From Bacteroides sp. (GTDB lineage: Bacteria > Bacteroidota > Bacteroidia > Bacteroidales > Bacteroidaceae): 64,000 nucleotides of DNA. The position numbers were made by a program, and so were the translations under genes. Within the stretch, counting starts at the first letter, position 1. Each line of letters begins with the position of its first letter. Positions 8,663 to 42,431 of this stretch are shown in pieces. The notes under the pieces were generated by a model. The model saw only the letters and a list, made by a program, of their open reading frames with translations, searched no databases and was not told where the DNA came from. Where the stretch lies: assembly GCF_028690125.1 (NCBI RefSeq), contig NZ_JAQVBV010000003.1, positions 62,001 to 126,000 on the forward strand. The letters run 5' to 3'.

Positions 8663-9568
8663 ATGAAACAGATTGTTGCCATACAAAACGGGTTGGGAAA
8701 CCAGATGTTCGACTACGCTTTTTATCTGGCGTTGAAAAGGACCTATCCCAAAGCCGGAATAACTACTTATCTGCTTGCCAGACGTTGTGACCACAACGGA
8801 CTGGAAATAGATAGGATATTCTCGCTCCCTCTATCCGAAAAGAAGAGCGATCGGATCGTGATGAGAATGTACAGAAAGCTATATTATCTAAGCAAGAAAC
8901 AGACCTTCACGGGTATATTCGGCAGATATACGTTAAAGCTACTCTATGCGCTTCATCTGGGATTATGTATGGATAAGCCCGAAATACCTTATCAAGGCGC
9001 ACAGTCATATATCTGGAAAAGAAACTACAAGGTATATTGGGGAGGTTGGATGTCCGAGAAATGGTTCTTACCCGTAAAAGAAGAGGTACGCAAATGCTTC
9101 TCATTCGATTTTGGGAAACTATCTCCCAAATCTGCCGGGCTGTTGGAAGAACTTTCGCAAACCGGGACTGACAGTATATCTATTCATGTACGCCGGGGCG
9201 ATTATCTGAAAAATCCACAATATTTCGATATCTGCAACACGGCTTATTACCGTGAAGCGATTAATTTAATTAAGGGAAAAACCGATAATGCGCGATTCTA
9301 TGTATTCTCTGATGATATACAATGGGTAAAGGAGAATCTGGAACTTCCCCAAAATACGGTTTACGTGAATTGGAATACAAAAACTGATTCTTGGCAGGAT
9401 ATGTGTCTCATGTCACACTGCCGGCATCATATTATCGCTAATAGTACATTCAGTTGGTGGGGTGCATGGCTGAACAGGAACGAGGAGAAAATAGTAGTCT
9501 GTCCCAAGATGTTTTCACGGACGGAGAACCTCGTAAACGTCATGCCCGATGAATGGATCAAAATATAA
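8663..9568 (+). CDS. GT11-type alpha-1,2-fucosyltransferase
   Basis: Starts MKQIVAIQNGLGNQMFDYAFYLALKRTYP; ISIHVRRGDYL; HHIIANSTFSWWGAWLN. The tracked ORF start at 8621 lies inside the upstream gene; the ATG at 8663 fits the family. Confidence 0.9.
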   Translation: MKQIVAIQNGLGNQMFDYAFYLALKRTYPKAGITTYLLARRCDHNGLEIDRIFSLPLSEKKSDRIVMRMYRKLYYLSKKQTFTGIFGRYTLKLLYALHLGLCMDKPEIPYQGAQSYIWKRNYKVYWGGWMSEKWFLPVKEEVRKCFSFDFGKLSPKSAGLLEELSQTGTDSISIHVRRGDYLKNPQYFDICNTAYYREAINLIKGKTDNARFYVFSDDIQWVKENLELPQNTVYVNWNTKTDSWQDMCLMSHCRHHIIANSTFSWWGAWLNRNEEKIVVCPKMFSRTENLVNVMPDEWIKI

Positions 9569-9573
9569 AGAAT

Positions 9574-10674
9574 ATGGAAGAGAAGGAAATTCGTGTCATT
9601 GCATTTTATTTGCCGCAATTCCATCCCACGCCTGAGAACGACCAATGGTGGGGAAAAGGATTTACGGAATGGACCAATGTAGGCAAGGCAAAGCCATTAT
9701 TTCGTGGACACTATCAGCCACGGGTTCCGGCAGACTTGGGATACTATGACTTGCGAGTATCCGAAACTCGCATCGAACAAGCAGAAATGGCAAGAAAGTA
9801 CGGAGTGGAGGGATTTTGTTACTGGCATTATTGGTTTGGTAATGGTCGCCAACTTCTTCAACGTCCTTTTCAAGAGGTACTTGCTTCCGGACAGCCGGAC
9901 TTTCCCTTCTGTCTTTCCTGGGCTAATCATAGTTGGGAAGACAAACAATTCAGTAAGGAAGGTACACACAAAATGTTGATGGAGCAACTATATCCCGGAG
10001 AAGCCGATGAAACAGCTCACTTTAACTATTTGCTCCCTGCATTTAAAGATCATCGCTATATACGGGTCGATGATAAACCTGTATTTATGGTATATGCACC
10101 GTTCAGCCTTCCTGATGCGAAACGTTTTATCCAGTTATGGCAGAAACTTGCCCGTGATAATGGATTGAAAGGTATCCACTTTATCGGTCAGACAAATAAC
10201 GCCGGAGATGTACAGACATTGAAAGATATGGGATTTGATGCTGTGAATATCGTCAGACTATTCGAATTCTTTAAACAGGACTATTCTATCTTTGAGAAGA
10301 TACACATGAAAATCATGCGCATCGTTTTCAAAAGAGGACGTATCGTTGAATATGCCAAAGCGGCCAAATTCTTTTCGGGCAGTGAAGATCGGGAAACGGA
10401 TTGTTATCCCACCATTATCCCTAATTGGGATCATTCTCCGCGTTCAGGACGCATGGGGCATATTCTGGTCCATTCCACTCCAGAGAAGTTTAAGAAGCAC
10501 GTGCTTGAATCCTTCTCCAATGTAGTAGATAAACCTGCGGACAAACGTCTGGTATTCCTCAAGTCATGGAACGAATGGGCGGAAGGGAATTACATAGAGC
10601 CGGATTTAAAGTTTGGCTTGTCCTATCTCGAAGCACTGAAAGAGGCAATCAAAGAAATTAAGTATGAGGTGTAA
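9574..10674 (+). CDS. WbsX / GH99-like glycan biosynthesis protein
   Basis: IAFYLPQFHPTPENDQWWGKGFTEWTNVGKAKPLFRGHYQPRVPADLGYYDLR, FCYWHYWFGNGRQLL, SWNEWAEGNYIEPD. Confidence 0.88.
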   Translation: MEEKEIRVIAFYLPQFHPTPENDQWWGKGFTEWTNVGKAKPLFRGHYQPRVPADLGYYDLRVSETRIEQAEMARKYGVEGFCYWHYWFGNGRQLLQRPFQEVLASGQPDFPFCLSWANHSWEDKQFSKEGTHKMLMEQLYPGEADETAHFNYLLPAFKDHRYIRVDDKPVFMVYAPFSLPDAKRFIQLWQKLARDNGLKGIHFIGQTNNAGDVQTLKDMGFDAVNIVRLFEFFKQDYSIFEKIHMKIMRIVFKRGRIVEYAKAAKFFSGSEDRETDCYPTIIPNWDHSPRSGRMGHILVHSTPEKFKKHVLESFSNVVDKPADKRLVFLKSWNEWAEGNYIEPDLKFGLSYLEALKEAIKEIKYEV

Positions 10675-10771
10675 ATTGGAAAATAATAGATTCTAATGAT
10701 GAACAAGTACTTAATCATAGATAAATTAAGATTCACAATGATTGAAATTATAAATAAATAACAACCCTATA

Positions 10772-10881
10772 ACGGACTATAGGTAAGTACCCAAACTACC
10801 TAGTAGTAATGACTCAATTACCCAGTAGTAGTTGCTCAATTACTACTGGGTAGTTGGTCCACTACTACCAGGTAGTTGAAA
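10772..10881. repeat. Degenerate tandem array of 22 bp units with internal inverted repeats
   Basis: AACGGACTATAGGTAAGTACCC / AACTACCTAGTAGTAATGACTC / AATTACCCAGTAGTAGTTGCTC / AATTACTACTGGGTAGTTGGTC / CACTACTACCAGGTAGTTGAAA, each exactly 22 bp; perfect inverted pair CCCAGTAGTA (10821-10830) and TACTACTGGG (10841-10850). Confidence 0.85.
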
Positions 10882-10936
10882 ACCCTTTAGTAATGTATCC
10901 TTGCGGAATTCGTTATTGATTATAAATGAATAAGTT

Positions 10937-11848
10937 ATGACTAAAGCACCTGTTTTGTTATTCGTATACAATCGCCCCGTTCATACACAGCAAACCATCA
11001 CTTCCTTGTTAAGAAATGAGATGGCGGCTGAAAGTCCTTTGTATATCTACTCCGATGCCGCTAAAACGGATGCGGATCAGAACGCGGTAGAAGAAACCCG
11101 TAGTTTTGTCCGTCAAATAACAGGCTTTGCATCCGTTACTATCATCGAACGGAGTGAGAATTGGGGATTAGCCCGCAACATCATCGACGGAGTTACTACA
11201 CAAGTGAATCGTTTTGGTCGTGTCATCGTATTGGAAGACGATCTGATTGTGGCGCCTTATTTTTTGCAGTTCATGAATGATGCACTCGAAACTTATAAAG
11301 ACGAACCACGTGTCGGACACATTCAAGCTTGCGATTTCACCAATGATTCTTCTTTACCGGATACTTTCCTTATCAAGTTTACCGGAAGTTGGGGCTGGGC
11401 AACCTGGGATAGAGCTTGGAAATACTTCAATCCCGACGGAGAAGCACTATTGAAAGAAATGGAAGAACGAAAGCTCACATATAACTTCGATTTCAATGGT
11501 AATTACCCATTCACCCGGATGTTACGTCGTCAAATCGAAGGGAAGAACAATTCCTGGGCAATTCGCTGGAATGCAAGTTTGTTTCTGAATAATATCCTTT
11601 CTTTGAATGTCGGTCGGTCGCTGGTACAAAACGACGGATTCGATGGAAGTGGCACCAATTGTGGAGGTGGAAATTTATACCGATCCTCTCTTTGGCTCGA
11701 ACCACTACCTGTAGAACATCTGCATCCGATAGAGGAAAATCAGCAGGCGCGCAATTCCTTTGCCCGTTATTATCACCGCACCAATTGTTTCATGGCAAAG
11801 GCTATTCGACGCTTAAAACGAACATTAAAAGGAGATTTTGGTGCTTAA
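10937..11848 (+). CDS. Glycosyltransferase (GT-A type, GT2/GNT-I-like)
   Basis: APVLLFVYNRPVHTQQTITSLL start and VIVLEDDLIVAPYFLQFMNDAL (DxD-type region). Confidence 0.8.
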   Translation: MTKAPVLLFVYNRPVHTQQTITSLLRNEMAAESPLYIYSDAAKTDADQNAVEETRSFVRQITGFASVTIIERSENWGLARNIIDGVTTQVNRFGRVIVLEDDLIVAPYFLQFMNDALETYKDEPRVGHIQACDFTNDSSLPDTFLIKFTGSWGWATWDRAWKYFNPDGEALLKEMEERKLTYNFDFNGNYPFTRMLRRQIEGKNNSWAIRWNASLFLNNILSLNVGRSLVQNDGFDGSGTNCGGGNLYRSSLWLEPLPVEHLHPIEENQQARNSFARYYHRTNCFMAKAIRRLKRTLKGDFGA

Positions 11849-41795: not shown

Positions 41796-42215
41796 ACTGA
41801 TGTTTTTTAGTGAGTACTTTTTAAAAGTTAATGGTACAAAAATAGGTTGAAACAGGCAGGTAAACAAAAAAACAGGCGGACAAAAATTGCTTATTGACTA
41901 TTGCTTATATCTCTGATTATTAGTTGTATATATGTTTGTTGCTTTAAATATAGGCGGACAACATCTGTATTATAAGTGTTATTTATTCAAATCAAGCTAT
42001 TTTTCAATTGATAAATAGCTCCTTTCGTGTTTTTTAATACCCACTTGTGCCCAGAACTGACAGCGGGCAGTTAATAAGAATCAGGAGGAATCTTGCTGGT
42101 TGTTTGGCTCTATATGTGTTCTCTTCTTGTAGGCTATTAATAGATAAGTTCTGTTTCATTAGAGATGAACTTTCTTTGCTCTAATAGTAAACTTCTTTTT
42201 TCTTCATTGCAATCT

Positions 42216-42299
42216 ATAAATGGAAGTTTCATTTGTATAAATGCAAGTTTCATTTATATAAATGCAACTTGTATTTATACAAACAGAAGTTTCGTTTAT
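42216..42299. repeat. Tandem array, four 21 bp units
   Basis: ATAAATGGAAGTTTCATTTGT / ATAAATGCAAGTTTCATTTAT / ATAAATGCAACTTGTATTTAT / ACAAACAGAAGTTTCGTTTAT; flanked by AATCTATAAA and TTTATAGATT. Confidence 0.92.
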
Positions 42300-42431
42300 A
42301 GATTATGCTTAATAGAGAAGATCTTCTGCATTAAAGAAGAAAAACTTTGGAAAGGACCAAGAGAAACTTTTCTACTAATCCCCCTGCTCTTGTTCGATAG
42401 TCACCCGCAAAACATGAATTAGAATTAGTAA

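Follow-up and report, generated by a model that had tools for sequence, protein, structure and literature searches.

In plasmids such as R6K and pPS10, iterons are 22-bp tandem sites, two helical turns in length, that lie beside the gene of the protein that binds them. HU-HIG (PF18291), a clade within the HU/IHF superfamily, is a DNA-binding family that is greatly expanded in Bacteroidetes. In REPtrons, REP/BIME palindromes are dispersed between genes, the RAYT gene is flanked by its own cognate repeats, and the sequence of the repeats varies with the partner protein. Within the Bacteroidales, BrickBuilt of Porphyromonas gingivalis is an intergenic MITE with an internal tandem array, leader and tail ends, a 23-nt unit (AGAYCATARTATCCTCTCRTRTG) and IS5-type terminal inverted repeats (GAGACCTTTGCA) (PMC4596501).

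The array described here lies in a 64,000-nucleotide stretch of a Bacteroides sp. genome (the window), between two glycosyltransferase genes. It is probably a dispersed, orphan copy of a four-dyad array of HU-HIG sites that arrived through a MITE-like insertion of about 153 bp. The family to which it belongs resembles REPtrons in being made of dispersed intergenic palindromes, in having genes flanked by their own cognate repeats and in the variation of repeat sequence with the partner protein. Unlike in REPtrons, the arrays have a fixed 22-bp phase, the partners are HU-HIG and DUF6078, and Y1_Tnp (PF01797) was not found in the host genome. As with plasmid iterons, two-turn tandem sites adjoin the gene of a binding protein (here a candidate one), although these units are dyads, chromosomal and dispersed, and neither a Rep protein nor an origin was seen. 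Like BrickBuilt, the element in the window is intergenic and MITE-like and holds a tandem array in a Bacteroidales host; the BrickBuilt unit, by contrast, lacks the TAC-N6-GTA dyad, and no link of BrickBuilt to HU-HIG or DUF6078 is reported (PMC4596501). Identity with BrickBuilt was rejected because its published 23-nt unit differs from the units in the window. The partner gene of the array class belongs to the same HU-HIG family, for which the literature searched, thin in subscription journals, yielded no description of a cognate DNA array.

Structure of the array

The repeat occupies positions 10794-10877 and consists of four related, non-identical 22-bp units, each an imperfect 18-bp palindrome built around TAC-N6-GTA. 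A 4-bp linker comes after each palindrome, and the dyad centers are 22 bp apart:

10794..10811, no strand, dyad unit 1 (TAC 10797-10799, GTA 10806-10808)
10816..10833, no strand, dyad unit 2 (TAC 10819-10821, GTA 10828-10830)
10838..10855, no strand, dyad unit 3 (TAC 10841-10843, GTA 10850-10852)
10860..10877, no strand, dyad unit 4 (TAC 10863-10865, GTA 10872-10874)

The 22-bp period is supported by Tandem Repeats Finder (rows covering 10783-10878) and by a lag-22 self-match score of 26.2, whereas none of 1000 dinucleotide shuffles exceeded 10.6. The 64-kb window holds a single lag-22 array, this one. An earlier note made from the sequence had described five exact 22-bp units. The period it saw is real, and its observation of a repeat array is partly confirmed, whereas the exactness is not: only 8–17 of 22 positions are identical among its five units, and its first unit (starting at 10771, with an extra A at 10793) is out of register by one base and is in fact the left end of an inserted element. 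The 10-bp inverted pair that it noticed (10821-10830 and 10841-10850) is exact and, as it expected, can be extended, giving arms of 41 nt (10794-10834 and 10837-10877) that are 83% complementary. The last dyad ends 59 bp upstream of the ATG at 10937; the earlier note had given about 55 bp for the end of its array.

Insertion between the glycosyltransferase genes

Three relatives, the genomes G571, G012 and G609, carry the same two flanking glycosyltransferase genes separated by a short spacer, and all three lack the array. Because the flanks are conserved where the array is absent, the array is an insertion that stands outside the ancestral operon. The features of the spacer are as follows:

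9553..10674, plus strand, upstream flanking gene, WbsX-type glycosyltransferase (PF14307), 89% identical in G571
10741..10761, no strand, left direct-repeat copy ATTGAAATTATAAATAAATAA, a possible target-site duplication, matching 10915-10933
10762..10914, no strand, inserted segment of about 153 bp, both edges uncertain by about 10 bp, from spacer alignment with G571, G012 and G609
10767..10781, plus strand, left terminal motif CTATAACGGACTATA, like the CTATNACGRAYCRTG ends of array elements and overlapped by the first unit of the earlier note
10904..10917, minus strand, right terminal motif AATAACGAATTCCG, a weaker match with four mismatches to the end consensus
10915..10933, no strand, right direct-repeat copy ATTGATTATAAATGAATAA
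10937..11848, plus strand, downstream flanking gene, family-2-like glycosyltransferase, 89% identical in G571

The two direct-repeat copies, ATTGAAATTATAAATAAATAA and ATTGATTATAAATGAATAA, correspond to a single stretch in G571; the repeat is imperfect (19–21 bp) and AT-rich, and its score is reached in 10 of 2000 shuffles. The CTATNACGRAYCRTG ends are found on array elements of other Bacteroides genomes and species (L239, L245, L246, L085 and L165), and in the window this shared motif falls at the left edge that orthology defines. As in a MITE, the site is empty in relatives. The end motif is clear on the left but only weakly matched on the right, and among the fetched loci no transposase was seen whose ends match those of the element. 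Given the right end and the transposase search, the evidence carries the element no further than "MITE-like". Two other arrays of the host genome (C4 and C130) are likewise absent from G571, the nearest relative, while for C12 and C48 synteny with G571 is lost and the comparison is uninformative on insertion.

A family of phased dyads

In searches with BLASTN against 40 relatives, plasmids and phages, the array had no match outside the host genome. The family was exposed solely by a degenerate pattern of three TAC-N6-GTA units. The host genome contains six arrays (C120, which is the window copy, and C4, C12, C38, C48 and C130), all intergenic or directly after a stop codon and with unrelated neighboring genes. 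In a collection with one genome per species, the pattern matches more than 117 stretches, overwhelmingly in Bacteroides, Prevotella, Segatella, Hoylesella, Mediterranea and Paraprevotella. At the level of the order, 2 of 295 genomes match, both in the genus of the window; at the level of the family, 31 of 299 do, compared with about 10 for a reversed control pattern. The unit sequence is specific to the lineage, and the 22-bp phase is common to all lineages. Heterotypic half-sites (TACC with TACTAC) are marked in the host genome and under-represented elsewhere, and were set aside as a trait of the family.

Slippage during replication could have produced a neutral minisatellite, an origin that fits the orthologous copies L245 and L094, whose unit number differs by exactly 22 bp. 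It is scarcely credible, however: the triplets and the phase persist in diverged units, arm positions 3 and 7–9 show more dyad symmetry than shuffles do, and the arrays are linked to particular genes.

Linkage to HU-HIG genes

When the neighbors of 144 arrays were clustered, two small proteins recurred, HU-HIG and DUF6078. None of the seven HU-HIG matches (PF18291) in these loci is more than 80 bp from the array, and the order is frequently HU-HIG, array, DUF4248. In the converse test, with 11 loci fetched solely by similarity of the HU-HIG protein (two of them near-identical copies), a 22-bp dyad array was found within about 320 bp of the HU-HIG gene in 11 of 11. Ten contain a TAC-N6-GTA run, three or four units long, which in eight is at the HU-HIG stop codon or no more than about 35 bp from it and in two is about 300 bp upstream. 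In the eleventh, a TGC-N6-GCA variant is present at the stop codon. No TAC-N6-GTA run occurs elsewhere in the 11 loci, and the background rate is one run of at least three units in 173 kb. Between species, 1 of 24 triplet positions of the HU-HIG array is changed, compared with 32–44 of 64 other positions; among pattern-found arrays, a bias to intact triplets inflates such a count. The HU-HIG loci, like the DUF6078 loci described below, were sampled free of pattern selection, from related taxa whose events are not independent. The order HU-HIG, array, DUF4248 is kept across Bacteroides species in L038, L186 and L194, with arrays that have largely diverged outside TAC and GTA.

The host genome has one HU-HIG–array locus, C38. 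The window array has the four TAC-N6-GTA dyads at 22-bp spacing by which the class is recognized; it is called an orphan copy because, unlike C38, it has no HU-HIG gene beside it, and none is present in the window.

Sister arrays at DUF6078 genes

DUF6078 (PF19555) has arrays of the same phase. In the array loci, the array lies 14–105 bp downstream of the gene in seven of seven matches, and in 50 loci chosen by the DUF6078 protein alone, the best self-match lag over the 350 bp scored downstream is 22 in 36 (1 of 50 upstream). The units vary by paralogue (TTACA-type, GTTTC..GAAAC, TTGCCA..TGGCAA and TTCTCAT..ATGAGAA): paralogues within one genome have unrelated arrays, and similar proteins across genomes have similar arrays. 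Similarity of DUF6078 proteins correlates with similarity of their arrays (Mantel r = 0.665, 0 of 5000 permutations), a test that covers DUF6078 and not HU-HIG. Four cysteines are invariant in the protein, its C-terminal domain is helical, and its predicted structure is confident over residues 70-136 only. Foldseek gave no match below 1e-3; the best matches, of the helical domain to lambda-repressor-like HTH domains at E ~0.8, are a lead only. DUF6078 was not found in viral contigs, and in PADLOC the partner proteins match no defense model. No literature on DUF6078 was found in a search that was thin in subscription journals, DUF4248 is mentioned in three papers, and an earlier description may exist.

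The TAC-type arrays could be operators for a DUF6078 protein and not for HU-HIG. DUF6078 genes do have cognate 22-bp arrays, in Prevotella-type genomes of the TAC type, and the gene is present in 27 of 31 array-positive genomes, compared with 146 of 268 others (p = 2.5e-4). Against this, the sole DUF6078 found in the host genome (L305, G000:C144) has its own 22-bp array of the form GTGCCA-N6-TGGCAC, and the TAC-type arrays of Bacteroides are located at HU-HIG genes, which makes the DUF6078 operator quite improbable here. Because the host DUF6078 array is GTGCCA-type, HU-HIG is taken as the TAC-type partner in Bacteroides. In Prevotella-type genomes, the TAC arrays adjoin DUF6078, not HU-HIG, so the dyad core may serve two families or be convergent. 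In L305, the GTGCCA-N6-TGGCAC array lies about 45–130 bp after base 2226, behind the DUF6078 gene.

Both linkages bear on a selfish palindromic element, REP/BIME- or MITE-like, whose units would serve transposition without any host or HU-HIG function. The species-specific insertion, direct repeats and shared ends fit such an element, as do the intergenic sites, the excess of convergent over divergent ones (30 vs 13) and whole-element duplicates in Mediterranea. However, a Y1/RAYT transposase is absent from the genome, and linkage to HU-HIG in 11 of 11 loci and to DUF6078 in 36 of 50, with units that track the neighboring protein, is unexpected for a passive repeat; a purely selfish element is unlikely. 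In Mediterranea massiliensis SIG138, an intergenic repeat of about 300–350 bp that includes the array is present in many copies (L073, L087, L100, L101, L105 and L130).

DNA element or RNA element

The earlier note had offered a leader RNA element, an attenuator or a protein-phasing site, an interpretation that is partly supported as a whole. The folding that it proposed to check is strong (−62.7 kcal/mol for 10760-10940, z = −6.8), and the genes on either side are on the same strand, as a leader RNA, attenuator or terminator for the glycosyltransferase at 10937 would have it. Palindromes, though, fold on either strand. RNA hairpins would predict more G-T than A-C on the sense strand, and gene-linked arrays have 63 G-T and 78 A-C, which leaves the RNA reading unsupported; nor is the sense-strand fold stronger, its energy being lower in 15 of 33 gene-linked arrays. 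The spacer contains no promoter- or terminator-like site and no T tract, so that neither the stem with T tract of an intrinsic terminator nor the sense bias of a leader RNA is seen. The window copy folds into a nested hairpin over the whole array, but such a hairpin is not conserved in the family: across 87 arrays its mean z is 0.05. No compensatory pairing was found within arrays beyond the array consensus, and arms fit their own unit no better than others; arms that are not unit-specific, with nested pairing unfavored, are expected of repeated protein sites and not of a conserved hairpin. Rfam gave weak miRNA-type matches to the window array, on both strands and below gathering scores, and nothing beyond a tRNA on the array loci. 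The array is also absent from relatives with the same gene pair, which is the outcome, absence of the repeat beside conserved flanking genes, that the earlier note had named as counting against its proposal. A leader RNA, attenuator or terminator is therefore very improbable. The protein-phasing site fares better, with the array class tied to HU-HIG genes and a sister class that co-varies in sequence with DUF6078, and the array is probably a binding platform for a HU-HIG protein rather than an RNA switch.

Proposed mechanism and significance

In Bacteroides and relatives, the home of the array class would be beside a HU-HIG gene, and one array entered the glycosyltransferase spacer inside the insertion of about 153 bp, a small MITE-like element that would be non-autonomous. 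A dimer of the HU-HIG protein encoded at C38 is predicted to bind at every TAC-N6-GTA dyad, in which the TAC and GTA triplets are 9 bp apart center to center. This distance agrees with the spacing of the kinks that HU/IHF dimers make, and two helical turns of DNA amount to 22 bp. With dyads two turns apart, four dimers would stack on one face and might form a single nucleoprotein unit by bending or wrapping the 88 bp. At the home locus, the array may act on the HU-HIG and DUF4248 genes, and at orphan sites on adjacent genes, here the glycosyltransferase pair; silencing, insulation, regulation or mobility may each be a role of the nucleoprotein block.

More broadly, and tentatively, Bacteroidaceae may have an undescribed class of protein–array pairs, in which HU-HIG or DUF6078 proteins co-evolve with 22-bp phased palindromes and orphan arrays spread in a MITE-like manner. 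If so, the pairs would offer a modular means of positioning specific nucleoprotein domains (for silencing, insulation or defense against mobile DNA), the specificity of HU-HIG and DUF6078 could be read from the DNA beside their genes, and orphan arrays would mark their sites of action in gut Bacteroides and Prevotella genomes. Both families, which have been without known DNA targets, each gain a concrete candidate binding array.

Other phased arrays

In L089 and L138 (Hoylesella marshii and Segatella maculosa), the unit sequence TTATAC gives way in mid-array to TTCTCC or TTGGAC; the two arms change together, and the 22-bp phase is kept. Another family of 22-bp phased palindromes (TACCGNNCGGTATA) is found at G597:C1:6324908-6325007 and at 778421, in a genome that also has TAC-type arrays. 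The window itself contains a second tandem array at 42215-42300, with a 21-bp period and about four units (TATAAATGCAAGTTTCATTTA); its single units and the array as a whole are roughly palindromic, and it resembles another phased-dyad array.
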